Part shown: positions 23,512 through 63,478 of the stretch, piece after piece | Layout of the letters: the number at the start of each line of letters is the position of its first letter | How positions within the stretch are numbered: the first letter of the stretch is position 1 | Source: Sulfurivermis fontis | GTDB lineage: Bacteria; Pseudomonadota; Gammaproteobacteria; Thiohalomonadales; Thiohalomonadaceae | Assembly (NCBI RefSeq): GCF_004001245.1 | Contig: NZ_AP018724.1 | Location: forward strand, 1,356,501-1,420,500 | Length of the DNA: 64,000 nt | Reading direction: 5' to 3' | Program-made: the position numbers and the translations under genes | Notes under the pieces: model-generated | The model's input: the letters and a program-made list of their open reading frames with translations, nothing else | Database searches by the model: none | Told to the model about the DNA's origin: nothing

Positions 23512-23774
23512 CCCGGCATTCGACTCTGACGAGGAATGGGCTGGGGCAAACGGCATCGCGGAGAATTGAATGGACGCCTCCCACCCCGTGAGCGCTGAAC
23601 ACGAGTTATCCGGCGCGCTGGCCGTCTTCGGTATGGAGGGACCTGCGGCGCCCGGCGCCGTGGATAGCTTTGCGGTGTGGGTGGGATGAAGGTGGACCCT
23701 CACGGGCCGACGGCATCGAAGTGCCCAAGGTGGAAGATACTGAAGGTCTTCACAGGCAAACCGGAGGGTCCGAA

Positions 23775-24800
23775 ATGAATGGTAGCAAAACGGTCGTTGG
23801 CGTGGATATCGCCAAGCGGGTATTTCAGTTGCACTGGATCGACATGGAGACCGGAGAGATCGTGAGCCTGCAGCTCAAGCGCGAGAAGTTCCTCGAACAC
23901 TTCGCTAACCGGCAACCATGCCTCATTGGGATGGAAGCCTGCGGCGGTGCGCAGCACTGGGCGAGGAAACTCACGGCGCTGGGCCACCAGGTCAAGCTCC
24001 TGCCAGGCAAGGCGGTGAAGCCGTTCGTCACCGGCAACAAGAACGACCGGCAGGACGCGCGGGCGATCTGGACAGCGGTGCAGCAGCCGCACGTCAAGGC
24101 GGTGGCGATCAAGACGGAAGAACAGCAGGCCATCCTGGCGCTGCACCGCATGAGGAGCCAGTTGGTCAAGTTCCGCACCGCGCAGATTAACGGCCTGCGG
24201 GGGTTGCTCGCCGAATACGGTGAAGTGATGCCGCAGGGCAAAGCGGGGGTCAGGAAGGGAATTGCTGCGGCTTTGGCCAGACTGGAAGACCGGCTGCCGG
24301 CAATGGTGATCGATACGTTGCGCGAGCAATGGGCGCGCATCGAGAAGCTGGATGGGGAAATCGCCGCCATCGAGCAGCGCATCCAGCTGTGGCTCAAGCA
24401 AGACGAAGCTTGCAAGCGAATCGCTGAAATTCCTGGTGTCGGGCCGCTGACCGCCACGGCGGCGGTCGCCATCATGGGCGACGCCAAAGCCTTCAAGTCG
24501 GGGCGAGAGTTCGCCGCCTTCGCCGGCCTGGTGCCGCGACAGGTGGGCACTGGTGGGCGCATCAAACTGCTCGGCATCAGCAAGCGCGGTGACACCTACC
24601 TGCGCACCTTGCTGATTCACGGTGCGCGATCCGTGCTGACCCACGCCAAAGACCCCGGCCCGTGGGTCACGAAATTACGCCAGCGCCGGCCGCTGAATGT
24701 CGCGGTCGTGGCCCTGGCCAACAAGATGGCGCGAACGATCTGGGCGATACTCGCCCATGAACGGACGTACCAAAAGGGATTCGTCAGTCAGCCGGCATAG
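23775..24800 (+). CDS. IS110-family (IS1111-type) DEDD transposase
   Basis: A 341-aa protein. The N-terminal DEDD RuvC-like domain shows GVDIAKRVFQL (first Asp), GMEACGGAQHWAR (Glu) and NKNDRQDARAIW (Asp pair). The C-terminal transposase_20 domain shows IPGVGPLTATAAVAIMGDAKAFKSGREFAAFAGLVPRQ with the catalytic-type Ser/Gly region GGRIKLLGISKRGDTYLRTLLIHGA. The ATG at 23775 has GGAGGG upstream. The frame is intact, so the element may be active. Confidence 0.92.
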   Translation: MNGSKTVVGVDIAKRVFQLHWIDMETGEIVSLQLKREKFLEHFANRQPCLIGMEACGGAQHWARKLTALGHQVKLLPGKAVKPFVTGNKNDRQDARAIWTAVQQPHVKAVAIKTEEQQAILALHRMRSQLVKFRTAQINGLRGLLAEYGEVMPQGKAGVRKGIAAALARLEDRLPAMVIDTLREQWARIEKLDGEIAAIEQRIQLWLKQDEACKRIAEIPGVGPLTATAAVAIMGDAKAFKSGREFAAFAGLVPRQVGTGGRIKLLGISKRGDTYLRTLLIHGARSVLTHAKDPGPWVTKLRQRRPLNVAVVALANKMARTIWAILAHERTYQKGFVSQPA

Positions 24801-25490: not shown

Positions 25491-25563
25491 TCAAGGCAGA
25501 TGCCGTTCAGTCGGCAGCGTGGTACAACAGCACTCCATAACAACAAGACACTCGGGGGCAAGC

Positions 25564-26124
25564 ATGGGCCGTATCATCCATCAGCAGGACATCATCGAGC
25601 GGCAGATCCTCGCCATGGGCATCGCCCGCTTCGATGTCGCCACGCGCAAGAAGAGCGGCTCCACCCTGGCCCACGACGGCCTCTATCTCACCCAGCTCTG
25701 GGGCCTGGTCGACCTGTTGCGCGAACAGAACCAGGCCGGCCACGCCGTCCTCATCCGCCCCCACGGCGAACACGGCATGACCCTGCTCGGCGGCCTCGAC
25801 AACGCCCGCCTCAGCAAACTCCGCGTCGAAGGCTTCGAACCGGCCCTCGTCGTGCAATACGGCAAGGACCTGTTCCAGGCCTGGCTCAAGCACGACCGCA
25901 AGCTCGACCAGGCCACCAGCGAAAAGGTCGCCAAATGCCTCGCCGAGATCGCCGGCGTCGACGCCTCCATCTCCCACTGGGACAGCTACGGCTACCTCGC
26001 CAACTTCCTCATCCCCGCCTGGGTCCAGGGCGAGGAACAGGAGGCCTACCTGATCGAAGACCGCGGCATCGTCTACAGCGCCGCGCCGCAACTGCTGTCG
26101 AAATACTGCGCCGCAGCAAGCTGA
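25564..26124 (+). CDS. Orphan RepB-primase-like protein
   Basis: A 186-aa protein. The run IARFDVATRKK, LLREQNQAGHAVLIRPHGEHGMTLLGGLD, GFEPALVVQYGKDLFQAWLKH and the final SHWDSYGYLANF follow the order of motifs in RepB-like DNA primase domains of mobilisable plasmids and relaxase fusions. The usual GFTN-K-P ending is replaced by NFLIPAW, so activity is doubtful. The ATG has GGGGG about 6 nt upstream. It stands alone beside an IS and integron cassettes, suggesting a remnant of a mobile element. The similarity is by eye and moderate. Confidence 0.5.
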   Translation: MGRIIHQQDIIERQILAMGIARFDVATRKKSGSTLAHDGLYLTQLWGLVDLLREQNQAGHAVLIRPHGEHGMTLLGGLDNARLSKLRVEGFEPALVVQYGKDLFQAWLKHDRKLDQATSEKVAKCLAEIAGVDASISHWDSYGYLANFLIPAWVQGEEQEAYLIEDRGIVYSAAPQLLSKYCAAAS

Positions 26125-26403
26125 CCGCCGGGCACATGGACGTGACTCTCAACCCCACCCCGACGAACTCGAAGCTGTGTAGGGCTCTGCCTGCAGACAG
26201 TGGGGTAGGGCTTTGGCAGTATCCGGCTAACGGATGAGCAAATGAAGGCAACTTGTTGGTTTCTTATCAGAAATGGCCTGCGTCGCCGTAAGCCAATTAA
26301 TGTGATAGGCCGTAGCGGTGCTATTACCAATAGTACGGCGTCGGCCTAATACACTGTAAGCCCTCATCACAGCATTAATCACCAGAGAAGTGGAGTACCG
26401 CAA
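26125..26403. other. Intergenic stretch, no gene recognised
   Basis: The stretch is AT-richer than the flanking core genes towards its right side. An imperfect palindrome (GGCC..CGCCGTA around 26275 with TACGGCG..GGCC around 26335) is visible. It lacks the GTTR-type end expected of an attC or attI site, so I do not call one here. Confidence 0.4.
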
Positions 26404-26634
26404 ATGGCTCATGAAGTCTCAATGGACATCAATAACAAACTCATACTTCACAAAGATGTGATACTTGAAGTGAAGAGCAATGGGAAAAAACTCGGAACAC
26501 TGCTCATCAGCAAGGGGAATGTTGAGTGGTTGCCATCAGGTAATTCCGTCAATAAACATCGTCTCTCGTGGGCCAAGTTTGCAGCGCTCATGGAAGAACA
26601 AGGAAAACCTGTCAAAGCAAATAAAGCGGACTAA
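26404..26634 (+). CDS. Small hypothetical protein in an integron-type cassette
   Basis: A 76-aa basic protein (KLILHKDVILEVKSNGKKLGTLLISKGNVEWLPSG, then SWAKFAALMEEQGKP). I do not recognise a characterised family. GGAG lies 9 nt before the ATG. Its stop codon TAA (26632-26634) sits inside the first conserved end of the attC site that follows, the usual cassette layout. Base composition is visibly AT-richer than the surrounding chromosome, consistent with transfer. Confidence 0.7.
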   Translation: MAHEVSMDINNKLILHKDVILEVKSNGKKLGTLLISKGNVEWLPSGNSVNKHRLSWAKFAALMEEQGKPVKANKAD

Positions 26635-26697
26635 CCCATCTGTCGAGAGGGATGCTCCGCCACTATCGGCGTCATGCCCCTCACTTCTACGTTAGCA
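26629..26697 (+). repeat. Integron attC site 1
   Basis: A 69-bp imperfect palindrome. The outer ends are CTAAC (26631-26635) and GTTAG (26691-26695). The inner arms GTCGAGAGGGATGCTCCGCC and GGCGTCATGCCCCTCAC pair with unpaired extra bases, the mark of a folded attC recombination site. It lies between two small same-direction genes. Confidence 0.75.
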
Positions 26698-26715
26698 ACC
26701 AGAAAGGAGATAGTA

Positions 26716-27204
26716 GTGAGAAAATTAGGATGTGCAGTAGCCATGTGTGTCATTGCAACCACAGTTAGCGCTGAAAACGTAGTGGTCAAGCAAGCACGGG
26801 AGGCAGGGGTCAAGCGCTGCATGCCTGCGATTGAAAAGATTGCGAACTTTTTGATTGGGGATGGCAATGCGGGCGTACACAGCGTTTGGAACTCCGACAA
26901 TCCAGACAAGCAAGCGTTCAGCGCGGTTATTGAGCGAAACTATAGCGATGGAGCTATCGTTACAAACCTTAACGTAACTCCTGTGCCAACAGGCCAATGT
27001 TATGTCGAGTATGAGAAAATAATTCAATTTAATAAATCATGCCTTGCTGCCGCACAAGAGTTCAAAGGTGCTGAATATAAAGGCGAGGTGAACAAGGAGG
27101 TTGGCGCATTGAACCACAATGGAGTGCATGTTTACCTCATCCCATCCGGTACTAATTGTATTGTTGTGCGCAAAGAGATAATCATGGATGGCCTTAAGCT
27201 GTAG
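26716..27204 (+). CDS. Secreted hypothetical protein in an integron-type cassette
   Basis: A 162-aa protein with a signal peptide (RKLGCAVAMCVIATTVSA, cleavage near SA-EN) and four cysteines in the mature part (RCMP, GQCYVEY, KSCLAA, TNCIVV), so two disulfides are possible. Function unknown. The GTG at 26716 is preferred because AGGAGA precedes it and it begins a clean signal peptide. It lies between two attC sites. Base composition is AT-rich compared with the core genes. Confidence 0.75.
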   Translation: MRKLGCAVAMCVIATTVSAENVVVKQAREAGVKRCMPAIEKIANFLIGDGNAGVHSVWNSDNPDKQAFSAVIERNYSDGAIVTNLNVTPVPTGQCYVEYEKIIQFNKSCLAAAQEFKGAEYKGEVNKEVGALNHNGVHVYLIPSGTNCIVVRKEIIMDGLKL

Positions 27205-27265
27205 TTGCTAACAGTGGGTTCCAGCCGACCGAAAATCGCTACGCGCTTTTCGGTCGGCTGAATCC
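27205..27265 (+). repeat. Truncated integron attC site 2
   Basis: It begins with TTGCTAAC just after the cassette stop codon and folds through GGGTTCCAGCCGACCG and CGGTCGGCTGAATCCC, with a further GAAAA/TTTTC pairing inside. The right end carrying GTTAGC is missing; sequence of the five-hairpin MITE follows directly at 27266. Confidence 0.65.
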
Positions 27266-27379
27266 CTGTGCCGCCATTTTCCAACGAGGATAAGTCGTTG
27301 GAAATTGAAGCTAATCGAAAATCACACTTTTCGATTGGCGTGGTCTGAGAAGTCCAAGATGGACTTGTTCAGACCTTCC
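27266..27379. mobile_element. IS5-like five-hairpin MITE, copy 2 (5'-truncated, diverged)
   Basis: 114 bp matching the right three-quarters of the 153-bp element: the 3' arm of hairpin 2, then hairpins 3 to 5 and the right end GACCTTCC. The left end and hairpin 1 are absent, replaced by attC sequence. This is the most diverged copy. Its fourth stem keeps pairing through compensatory changes (AATCG with CGATT where the others have AAGCG with CGCTT). CTAA follows the right end. Confidence 0.8.
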
Positions 27380-27397
27380 CTAAATCCTTCGCCCTCG

Positions 27398-29299
27398 CTA
27401 CCCCATCTCCTCCGCAACAACCGTCCGGTTCCTGCCGCTTTCCTTGGCGCGATAGAGCGCCGCGTCGGCGCGTGTCAGCGGTGCGTCGATGCGGTTGTCC
27501 GTGGGCAATATTTCCGAGATGCCGATGCTGATGGTCAGGAGGAGCGATTCACCGTCATCCAGGGCCACCGGCGTAGCGGCGATGGTTTCGCGCAGGCGTT
27601 CGGCGGTGACGCGCGCCTCGGCGGGGCCGATGCCGGGGAGCAGGATGGCGAATTCCTCGCCACCGATGCGGCCGGGGATGTCGATCTTGCGGATGTTGTC
27701 GCGCATCAGTTTTGCCACGTGGCGCAGGACGGCGTCGCCGGCGGCATGGCCGTAGGTATCGTTGATCTTCTTGAAGTGGTCCAGGTCGAGCATCATCACC
27801 GAGGCGCAGGGGGTGACCGCGCGATCGAGGCGCGCCAGCTGTTCTTCCAGCCGGGTGAGGAAATGGCGCCGGTTGGGCAGGCCGGTGAGGGCGTCGGTGG
27901 TGGCCATCTCCTCGAGTTCGCGTTCCATGCGCTTGCGGTCGGTGACGTCGATGATGATGGAGTAGAGCAGGCGCTGGCTGTCGATATCGAGCGGCCCGGA
28001 GTAGACCTCGACATCGCGGATTTCGCCACTGGCGAGGCGGTGGCGGAAGTTGAAGTGGTTGCGGTTTTCGCTGCGCGCCCGTTCCATCTCGGCCCGGATG
28101 TCTTCCGGTGCCAGGGTGTTGATGGCGGTGATCTTCATGGTGCGCAGCTGGTCGATGTCGTAGCCGTAGTAGGTACTGGCCGCCTTGTTGGCGTCGATGA
28201 TGCGGCCATCTGCCGGATCGATGAGCAGGTTGGGCAGGCGGGAATTCTGGAAGAAGATGCGATAGCGCTCCTCGCTCGCCTTCAGCGCGCGGGACAGTGT
28301 GGCCTCGGCCTCGGCGGCGGTGAGGCGCTGGCGATGCCACAGGGTGCTGAGGAATGCCAGGGTGGCGGCCAGGGTCAGAGCCATGATGCCGCCGGTGGTA
28401 AGGGCGAGCTGGTTGAGTTCGGCCAGCGCCTCCGCTTCGTCCATCTTGGCTATCAGGATCCAGGACGTGCCGGGGACGGCCCGCCCGACAAACAGGGTGC
28501 GGACGCCGCGGTAGTCGATGCCGGTCATGCTGACCGGCTGGGCGCCGGCCCGGATGGCAATGGCGGCGGGCAGTTCTTCCGTGGCCACTTGCCAGCGCAG
28601 GTGGAAGGCCGTGTCCGAGTGGTGGCGCAGTGGGTTGAGAAAGGCGATTTCATTCCCCTCGCGGCGTACCAGTACGAGTTCGCCGGTGGCACTGGGACGC
28701 GGCCAGCGCCGGATGTGTGGGTAGAGATGGGACTCGGCCCGCAGGCCGACGAAGAGCACGCCGATGGCGCGTCGATCGGTGTCGGTGGCGACGAAGATGG
28801 GGGCGACGTGGCCCAGGCGGATGGAGCCGTCTTCCTTGTGCAGGTGCAGGTCGACCATCCTGACCGCGCCGGTGTCCACCGCTTCCTTGGCGAATTGGCG
28901 CATTTCCGACATTTGCGGCATGACATCGCCTGCGCCGAGCAGGCGGGTGCCGTCCAGATCAAGCAATTCGGCGCTGGCGAAATCGTAGGACTCACGGAAA
29001 TTGTGCAGAAAGCCGAGCAGGTGCTCCTCCGCGGTCTTGTCACCGTTGTGCTTCCATTGCGCCAGGGCGGTGGCGATGGTGGGATTGCCGCTGGCCGAGG
29101 CGACATTGGCACGGCGTTCGGCCAGCCATTCGGTGATGATGCCGACCTTAAGCTCCGCCACTGCCTCCATCTCATCGAGATGGACCCGCTTGAGATGGGC
29201 GGCCTGCTGGCCATAGCTCACCAAACCGGTGGTGAGGATCGCCAGGCTAAACAGCAGGAAGATCAGGGCCAGGGTGCGGGCTTGCTTGTCGCGCGGCAT
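27398..29299 (-). CDS. Membrane-bound sensor diguanylate cyclase (PAS-GGDEF)
   Basis: A 633-aa protein. A transmembrane helix (about 9-29) and a second one (about 301-321) flank a periplasmic sensing region of about 270 residues of Cache-like appearance. A PAS domain (about 340-455) and a GGDEF domain (about 465-630) follow. The active site GGEEF (546-550) is intact and an inhibitory I-site RKID (537-540) lies exactly five residues upstream. It should make c-di-GMP under product feedback. It ends close to the truncated MITE copy. Confidence 0.9.
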   Translation of the reverse strand: MPRDKQARTLALIFLLFSLAILTTGLVSYGQQAAHLKRVHLDEMEAVAELKVGIITEWLAERRANVASASGNPTIATALAQWKHNGDKTAEEHLLGFLHNFRESYDFASAELLDLDGTRLLGAGDVMPQMSEMRQFAKEAVDTGAVRMVDLHLHKEDGSIRLGHVAPIFVATDTDRRAIGVLFVGLRAESHLYPHIRRWPRPSATGELVLVRREGNEIAFLNPLRHHSDTAFHLRWQVATEELPAAIAIRAGAQPVSMTGIDYRGVRTLFVGRAVPGTSWILIAKMDEAEALAELNQLALTTGGIMALTLAATLAFLSTLWHRQRLTAAEAEATLSRALKASEERYRIFFQNSRLPNLLIDPADGRIIDANKAASTYYGYDIDQLRTMKITAINTLAPEDIRAEMERARSENRNHFNFRHRLASGEIRDVEVYSGPLDIDSQRLLYSIIIDVTDRKRMERELEEMATTDALTGLPNRRHFLTRLEEQLARLDRAVTPCASVMMLDLDHFKKINDTYGHAAGDAVLRHVAKLMRDNIRKIDIPGRIGGEEFAILLPGIGPAEARVTAERLRETIAATPVALDDGESLLLTISIGISEILPTDNRIDAPLTRADAALYRAKESGRNRTVVAEEMG

Positions 29300-49812: not shown

Positions 49813-49965
49813 GGAAGTTCTGAATAAGTTCAGAGCTTCCGCGGCACAGGAATGTGCCGCCATTTTTCAACGACGATAAGTCGTTGAAAAATGAAGCCAA
49901 GCGAAAATCACACTTTTCGCTTGGCGTGGTCTGAGAAGTCCAGGATGGACTTATTCAGACCTTCC
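49813..49965. mobile_element. IS5-like five-hairpin MITE, copy 3 (intact, 153 bp)
   Basis: Intact 153-bp copy flanked by GTAA at 49809-49812 and 49966-49969. The left duplication includes the icd stop codon. It differs from copy 4 at few positions, for example GGAAGTTCTGAA in the left arm, which leaves a G-U pair. It may act as the icd mRNA 3' structure. Confidence 0.88.
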
Positions 49966-50023
49966 GTAAGTAACGGCGCTGGCGGACGGGGCGGGACCGG
50001 GCGGTTTCCGCCCCGTTTGCTTT

Positions 50024-50485: not shown

Positions 50486-50638
50486 GGAAGCTCTGAATAA
50501 GTTCAGAGCTTCCGCGGCACAGGGATGTGCCGCCATTTTTCAACGACGATAAGTCGTTGAAAAATGAAGCCAAGCGAAAATCACACTTTTCGCTTGGCGT
50601 GGTCTGAGAAGTCCAGGATGGACTTATTCAGACCTTCC
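50486..50638. mobile_element. IS5-like five-hairpin MITE, copy 4 (intact, 153 bp)
   Basis: Intact copy flanked by ATAG at 50482-50485 and 50639-50642. The hairpins are at 50486-50513 (12-bp stem), 50514-50533 (8 bp), 50534-50566 (14 bp), 50569-50598 (12 bp) and 50601-50634 (15 bp with one bulge). Only 8 of 153 bases lie outside the five hairpins. Confidence 0.88.
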
Positions 50639-50660
50639 ATAGGAGTGGTTTGTGTTGCTT

Positions 50661-62433: not shown

Positions 62434-62638
62434 GGAAGCTCTGAATAAGTTCAGTCCTTCCGCGGCACAGGGATGTGCCGCCATTTTTCAACGACGATAA
62501 GTCGTTGAAAAATGAAGCCAAGCGAAAATCACACTTTTCGCTTGGCGTGGTTTTGTGCACGGATGGACTTATGTCGCGCAGCCCATGGAGGGGCGAGAGC
62601 GACCTGAGAAGTCCAGGATGGACTTATTCAGACCTTCC
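62434..62638. mobile_element. IS5-like five-hairpin MITE, copy 5 (with 52-nt insertion)
   Basis: A 205-bp copy. Hairpins 2 to 4 match copies 3 and 4. The 3' arm of hairpin 1 is altered (TTCAGTCCTTCC). About 52 nt are inserted within the left arm of hairpin 5, containing a partial duplicate of the right end (GGATGGACTTAT) and a stem GTCGC/GCGAC. Flanks are TGAG (62430-62433) and TTAG (62639-62642), a 3-of-4 match. The right end abuts the stop codon of the next, leftward gene. Confidence 0.85.
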
Positions 62639-63478
62639 TTAGATGTTCAGCAACTGCTGAGTTTCACGGATCGTATCACCGGTGCCTTCCATCTCGATGA
62701 CGTTCACATCCGGACTGAGCCCCAGCTTGGCAAAAGCGGGGATCGTGCCCAGATCCTGTTCCGCCAGGGGATGGTTGCTGCCCAGATAACTCTGCAGGTT
62801 GGCGACTATCACTACGTCGACGAAATCCACCGTCGCCGAGTTGTAGGTGAGGTTTTCATGCTGCTCCGCCACATCCACCAGTTCCGGCGGGAAGTTCCAG
62901 GAACGCAGGATGGCGCCGCCCACGCGCGGATGCAGTTCGCGGATGACCCAGTCCAGGGCCTTTTCGTCCTGCAACAGTTCGGGGAAATCTTCGGCCTTGG
63001 TCAGGATGGGCATGGCACCGATGTCATGTACCAGACCGGCGAGAAGGGCCTGCTCCGGGTTCAGCTTGGTGAACTGACCGGCCAGGGCGTGGCAGATGGC
63101 CGCCACCTCGGTGCTGTGCTCCCACAACTGGCGCAGGCGCTGGTCGGTCACATCGGAGGTGGCCTGAAACATCTGCTGCATCACCATGCTGGTGGCAAGG
63201 TCACGCACGATGCGCATTCCCAGGCGGCTGACGGCGGCATCGACGCTTTCGATCTTGCGACCGGCGCGCATCAGCGGACTGTTGGCCACCTGGATCAGGC
63301 GGGCACTCAGCGCCGGGTCGCTGACAATAATCCTGACCAGATCGGCAATGGAAGAGTCCGGGTCGTCCACCACCTCACGCACCTTGAGGGCCACTTCGGG
63401 CAGGGTAGGCAGGACCAGGCGGTTGTGTTCCAGGTCGGCGAGCAGTTCGTCGTAAAACAGGCGGCTGATGTCAGTCAC
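62639..63478 (-). CDS. HDOD-domain signalling protein
   Basis: A 279-aa single-domain HDOD protein (LPTLPEVALKVREVVDDPDSSIADLVRIIVSDPALSARLIQVANSPLMR, AVSRLGMRIVRDLATSMVMQQMF, LLAGLVHDIGAMPIL). HDOD proteins lack full HD catalytic residues and act in motility, stress or c-di-GMP signalling. It starts at GTG 63478 with AAGGA 7 nt upstream. Its stop codon TAA lies in the TTAG flank of MITE copy 5. Confidence 0.88.
   Translation of the reverse strand: MTDISRLFYDELLADLEHNRLVLPTLPEVALKVREVVDDPDSSIADLVRIIVSDPALSARLIQVANSPLMRAGRKIESVDAAVSRLGMRIVRDLATSMVMQQMFQATSDVTDQRLRQLWEHSTEVAAICHALAGQFTKLNPEQALLAGLVHDIGAMPILTKAEDFPELLQDEKALDWVIRELHPRVGGAILRSWNFPPELVDVAEQHENLTYNSATVDFVDVVIVANLQSYLGSNHPLAEQDLGTIPAFAKLGLSPDVNVIEMEGTGDTIRETQQLLNI

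Follow-up and report, generated by a model that had tools for sequence, protein, structure and literature searches.

Gene cassettes that lie apart from an integrase have been described before, and the excerpts of the literature on which we draw here name several kinds. CALINs are called by IntegronFinder 2 at a default threshold of two attC sites (PMC9024848), a single attC without an integrase is referred to as SALIN (PMC12690207), and about half of the Xanthomonas genomes are described as having integrase-less cassettes with an integron elsewhere, these CALINs occurring away from ilvD, the fixed integron locus (PMC12444791). Integration at attG sites is described as well (PMC12901181, PMC12444791), and the attG paper is also cited in PMC12690207.

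Here we report on two small genes in the chromosome of Sulfurivermis fontis, which a first-pass annotation had read as integron gene cassettes. The match of the first site to the native attC family, a base composition like that of native cassettes and a homologue of the second gene next to an integrase support this reading. We propose, at a probability of roughly 0.75, that the pair was released by an integron, integrated elsewhere and then truncated at its right end, which left it stranded.

Layout of the cassette pair and its complete attC site

The chromosome is a single contig (C1) of 3,246,214 bases, and the window, i.e. the whole stretch of 64,000 nucleotides that was analysed, covers its bases 1,356,501-1,420,500. 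The following features were assigned (window positions, strand, feature):

26213..26403, +, left junction zone between the conserved chromosome and cassette 1, including an imperfect hairpin at 26301-26353
26404..26634, +, ORF of cassette 1, 76 aa, with its stop codon within the CTAAC box of its own attC
26628..26698, +, attC site 1, complete (CTAAC 26631-26635, GTTAGC 26691-26696; cmsearch with model R1)
26716..27204, +, gene of cassette 2, 162 aa, GTG start, with a predicted signal peptide and four conserved cysteines
27207..27270, +, site 2, read as a half attC: GCTAAC left box and L''/L' hairpin with one extrahelical C, without right box
27267..27379, +, bases 41-153 of a MITE-like dispersed repeat of 153 bp, 92% identical to the consensus
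27380..27383, +, CTAA, the right target-site copy of the truncated repeat

The gene to the left of the cassettes, at 25564-26124, is RepB-primase-like (35.7 bits in Pfam, against a cut-off of 24.3), and the right neighbour is a PAS-GGDEF gene on the opposite strand (27398-29299). Each cassette has one short ORF, which starts near the preceding right box and stops at or in the next left box. Specifically, the GTG of ORF 2 stands 25 bases away from where the right box of site 1 begins, ORF 1 stops inside its left box, and ORF 2 stops two bases before the left box of site 2. The GC content is 42.9% for ORF 1 and 46.4% for ORF 2, compared with 63.0% for the whole window, and the 801 bp from 26404 to 27204 (46.2% GC) are the minimum among the 632 stretches of the same length that were compared. 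The same computation gave 40-55% GC for the ORFs of the native array described below (n = 10); both window genes share the base composition of the native cassettes. It had been noted from the sequence that the two small genes are AT-richer and on the same strand, and that the first stop codon lies inside an attC. Both observations were borne out, with the GC content of the ORFs far under that of the window and the TAA of ORF 1 sitting in CTAAC.

A genome-wide search with TIGR02249 gave six matches, of which one was over the cut-off of 265 (C1:327507-328451; 473 bits, no stops), and in fourteen control genomes all matches were below the cut-off. This integrase is followed by nine attC sites and forms part of a complete native integron (C1:327477-333900; L007 9477-15900), 1.03 Mb from the cassettes. 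None of the TIGR02249 matches falls within the window coordinates, and the window locus is without an adjacent intI and attI. The first-pass annotation, which saw no integrase and suggested a search for intI, was thus right for the window, where that search finds nothing, and not for the genome, where one match over the cut-off belongs to a complete integron.

The nine attC sites of the native integron were used to train an attC covariance model (R1), and a second attC covariance model was used without the right box (R2). The search space for R1 was the window plus 60 kb around the integron (124 kb in total), and its E-values are rough because the calibration was short. Site 1, which was outside of the training set, was found by cmsearch with 25.3 bits (E = 6.6e-4 over 124 kb). 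It ranked after the nine training sites (46-76 bits), which match R1 by construction since the model was built from them, and before all else (≤16.6 bits). Its CTAAC and GTTAGC boxes enclose an imperfect hairpin, such that both the R''/R' boxes and the L''/L' hairpin of a complete attC are present. The single-strand folding was no better than that of shuffled sequences, with z values of 0.14 (bottom strand) and -0.54 (top strand). In the whole genome, searched using a fast first pass in which site 1 itself was not listed, the out-of-sample matches to R1 (E ≤10) were led by the one at 2,443,130 with 29.6 bits, followed by 18.9, 16.6, 15.4 and 15.3 bits. Judged by the model match, site 1 is a real attC that shares its family with the native array sites, and it could still serve the distant integrase in trans as a substrate.

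Matching CTAAC/GTTAG ends had been claimed for both sites, and attC covariance models of the region and the genome had been suggested as the check, with scores below threshold at both sites as the adverse outcome. That description holds for site 1, which has both boxes and was detected out of sample. Site 2 departs from it: there is no GTTAG right box, the full-length model R1 did not find it in the 124 kb, and R2 gave a weak match (13.9 bits, E = 0.88).

A second integrase-less remnant, with two cassettes, is located at 2.4422-2.4437 Mb (C1:2442225-2443657; L088 2225-3657), and in total three attC-bearing places were found in the chromosome. In it, the spacer between the native integrase and attI is present as a second copy that reaches the attI crossover (82% identity over 256 bp). 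One cassette encodes a RelE/ParE-type toxin together with its antidote (132.7 and 120.9 bits), an attC scores 29.6 bits, and a 111-aa ORF has a degenerate attC behind it. The sequence after the remnant (L088 3626-4001) is 88-99% identical to that after the stray cassettes of one relative, G001 (L127 1133-1441), and these may share a common locus or a repeat.

Cassette genes and attC sites in related genomes

For cassette 1, no Pfam, NCBIfam, PHROG or PADLOC family was over the cut-off. At E ≤1e-5 it is present in one of the 369 genomes of the class, its own, and one weak match was obtained among plasmids (Gordonia, 33%, E = 9e-3); by these searches the gene appears to be without a clear homologue. 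Cassette 2 is present in four of the 369 genomes, again including its own, and a close-relative scan of the genome contigs with cassette 2 gave no relative. In one of the homologue loci (L243 274-1971) it directly adjoins an integron integrase (343 bits) as the first gene, and by eye its downstream end is apparently broken by a transposase-like insertion. In another (L242 1390-2090) we see it, also by eye, between IspA-like and Dxs-like genes, preceded by GTTAGCTG and followed by GCTAACAAAAGCAATCAACTCGGACC. Apparently GTTAGCTG is a cassette edge and GCTAACAAAAGCAATCAACTCGGACC the left half of an attC, i.e. a lone cassette with a truncated attC. This reading was made by eye because R1 (at E ≤1 in the three homologue loci) and R2 (in L242, L243 and L133) found nothing there. 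The homologue in L133 has no attC after the gene. Among plasmids, 19 records match cassette 2 with 24-31% identity, and in none of the three contexts examined is an integron gene annotated.

The mature part of the cassette 2 protein has four cysteines that are invariant in six of six aligned sequences. The secreted protein with four cysteines, as it had been described, is therefore confirmed as to the cysteines in the part after the predicted signal peptide. The product is likely periplasmic or secreted with two disulfides, and our best guess, by analogy with what is usual for cassette genes, is that it provides an accessory trait. The predicted structures of the two proteins were poor (mean pLDDT 57.5 and 64.1), and neither matched a PDB entry at E ≤0.001. 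A simple scan found no sigma-70 promoter, and expression is therefore probably by read-through from the left or from an untypical promoter; it would need a promoter located within 26125-26403 or further upstream.

With R1 at E ≤0.01, at least one attC was predicted in 19 of 39 relatives (own genome included), and in 14 of the 20 genomes of the family. An integrase over the cut-off was present in nine of these 20, and seven family genomes have attC matches without a detected integrase, many of the relatives' assemblies being drafts. In a single-contig family genome (G005), also with no detected integrase, there are four attC matches at separate places. Together, the window, the 2.44-Mb locus and 16 stretches from six relatives have 32 attC matches at E ≤1. 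Most of these have recognisable boxes, and the weakest are probably due to chance. Within the named genome collection, the integrase most similar to the native one (97% identity) is encoded by a metagenome-assembled gammaproteobacterium (contig JANJXC010000100.1), and our literature search for integron together with Thiohalomonas found nothing. Scattered attC sites are common in this little-studied gammaproteobacterial family, which makes it well suited for tests of how integrases act at non-attC sites.

The half attC, its junction with a dispersed repeat, and the origin of the pair

At site 2, the GCTAAC box (27207-27212) is followed by an inverted repeat (27216-27239 and 27243-27266, 88% complementary) with fold z values of -7.4 and -6.6 on the two strands. 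The spacing reads CTAAC, 5 nt, 3 bp, one extrahelical nt, stem, loop, stem, 3 bp, 6 nt and G at 27270, in agreement with the array sites (n = 9), where by eye the left spacer has five bases and the right one five or six. A geometry scan that did not demand a right box gave 27209-27270 as its sole match in the window. In random windows of the same dinucleotide make-up, five or two sites were found per 20 windows at two settings, and such a geometry is accordingly expected by chance about 0.1-0.25 times per 64 kb; the scan is strict, since only two of the nine array sites were recovered. At the place of the right box nothing resembles GTTRRRY and the dispersed repeat begins, i.e. the closing site of cassette 2 is not a complete attC. 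Because site 2 is not model-significant, its reading as an attC is based on geometry and position, not on score. The Rfam search of the window gave nothing at the gathering threshold, and a permissive run gave only a microRNA match at the site 2 hairpin, far under the gathering score.

From the chromosomal stretches analysed, the repeat was recovered as 41 full copies, 39 of which are 153 bp long, and 34 of the 41 have identical 4-bp flanks, mostly TTAA, TTAG, CTAA or CTAG (YTAR). Its consensus folds as a string of consecutive hairpins, and its left end occurs 143 times in the 3.25-Mb chromosome (≤3 mismatches). In the window it matches at 1068-1184, 27267-27379, 49853-49969, 50526-50641 and 62474-62644. 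The ends and the YTAR duplication presumably resemble those of IS5-family elements. Copies with 86-95% identity are also present in a genus relative.

In the copy next to site 2, the left 40 bases are missing at the point where it meets the half attC; as it keeps only bases 41-153 of the consensus, the half attC runs directly into the interior of the second hairpin of the repeat. TGTG is common to the repeat and site 2, if the expected crossover is right, and the join can therefore be placed anywhere in 27267-27270. This range includes the expected integrase crossover, with the break within a few bases of the expected cut. The reciprocal junction (the left part of the repeat followed by TTRR) has no match in the whole genome, and a simple insertion into the repeat is thus unsupported. 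The insertion of a whole repeat beside site 2 was rejected given that the left 40 bases are missing, and the 153-bp repeat does not include the site 2 hairpin. We also considered whether the repeat adjoins other scattered attC sites. Among the relatives' stretches L119-L134 it matched in L120 only, over 41 bases that cover the first hairpin alone and have no link to the array. Likewise, truncation exactly at the crossover was dropped as a general rule; the last attC of the 2.44-Mb remnant is degenerate and the right end of its R2 match is elsewhere (L088 3553-3657).

The genome that encodes the 97% identical integrase, G039, appears to be the same as a member of the genus, G004. On the left side, this genus relative (G004/G039) is 92% identical over 25525-26212 of the window and then unlike it, and the right neighbours match again from 29503. 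Between these flanks it has an alpha/beta-hydrolase-like gene and others, with neither the cassettes nor the GGDEF gene, and there is no integron at this locus. Since the relative also differs on the right side, it does not represent a clean empty site, and the alignment shows that the region is variable. As to a GTTRRRY left edge of cassette 1, 26201-26410 has a single GTTR, the GTTGGTT at 26255. An attI upstream of cassette 1 was rejected, the similarity score of 14 being no better than the shuffle mean of 15.9, and the imperfect hairpin at 26301-26353 (z -2.75 on the + strand) was dropped as an attC candidate for its absent boxes.

Two further observations concern the left side. The 53 bp at 26178-26230 are 81% identical to C1:2630295-2630348, which lies immediately next to a MITE copy, at the CTAA/TTAG target of that copy, and this stretch is perhaps another intergenic repeat. 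Moreover, an IS110-family transposase of the RNA-guided type is encoded at 23670-24800 (343 bits against NF033542), and in the genus relative the genes that flank it stand together without the transposase.

Loot et al. reportedly showed in Nat Microbiol in 2024 that cassettes are integrated at attG sites. For the present pair, an integrase, native or that of an ancestor, would have excised the cassettes as circles, and these would have recombined into a non-attC place in the genome, as published for attG. A later event, of which the product is seen, would have removed the right box of site 2 together with the left part of the repeat, either through illegitimate recombination or through an integrase reaction in which another non-attC site, within the repeat, was the partner. 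Because its closing attC is incomplete, cassette 2 is predicted not to be excisable as a normal cassette, which would lock the pair in place. It is a long shot that the integrase used the inside of the MITE-like repeat as its non-attC partner, cutting site 2 at the normal crossover and joining it just past the loop of the second hairpin. If this were general, the repeat family would offer landing or deletion points throughout the genome, which would scatter and then lock cassettes. The pair is an example, on a single-contig chromosome, of cassettes stranded far from a resident integron, and its junction illustrates how the loss of the attC can turn a cassette into a fixed chromosomal gene.

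We regard it as unlikely that the pair is instead the relic of a larger integron at this place, from which the integrase, attI and most cassettes were deleted. The 2.44-Mb locus of the same genome is such a relic, with an attI copy, two cassettes and no integrase listed, whereas here attI similarity upstream of cassette 1 is absent and this locus in the genus relative is free of both integron and cassettes. Very doubtful too is the notion that site 2 is a terminator-like or otherwise unrelated hairpin that follows the gene by chance. The missing right box, the insignificant scores with R1 and R2 and the adjoining repeat, itself made of hairpins, would fit, but the GCTAAC box, the spacing and the one-nucleotide extrahelical base all agree with attC, and this rare geometry is found two bases past the stop of a gene that stands behind a real attC. 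In addition, the hairpin is outside the 153-bp repeat and no U-tract terminator was called.

That we are dealing with ordinary chromosomal genes, site 1 being a chance resemblance, is hardly credible. The unremarkable single-strand folding of site 1 would be in keeping with it; against it stand the E-value of 6.6e-4 in 124 kb and the listed genome-wide matches, which besides the array and the 2.44-Mb site do not exceed 18.9 bits, and the stop inside the box, the GC shift and the integron-borne homologue all favour cassettes. Our data thus favour released, integrated and subsequently truncated cassettes.

Comparison with described systems

By the default of IntegronFinder 2 (at least two attC sites) the pair is not a CALIN, since R1 finds one complete attC, and as a single attC with no integrase nearby it qualifies as a SALIN. 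The first-pass annotation had left the choice between a CALIN-type array and a stray pair, and with one attC and a half the latter fits better. In common with CALINs and SALINs, the locus has attC cassettes without a nearby integrase and a complete integron elsewhere in the genome; it differs in that the last cassette ends as a half attC fused to a dispersed repeat.

As with attG-integrated cassettes, the cassettes are outside the integron with an integrase in the genome, and the right side consists of an attC half followed by unrelated DNA near the crossover. In contrast, the reciprocal half of the repeat is absent here, the left edge was not found and the right end is modified. With no located left junction and no reciprocal repeat half, what is seen today does not amount to a clean attG insertion. 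The Xanthomonas CALINs likewise have separate groups of cassettes, with the integron kept at one fixed locus, but belong to another family, while the present locus has one intact site and the genus relative is without cassettes there. Taken together, the window pair belongs to a known kind, that of integrase-less cassettes with an integron elsewhere, and represents ordinary stray cassettes rather than a new system.
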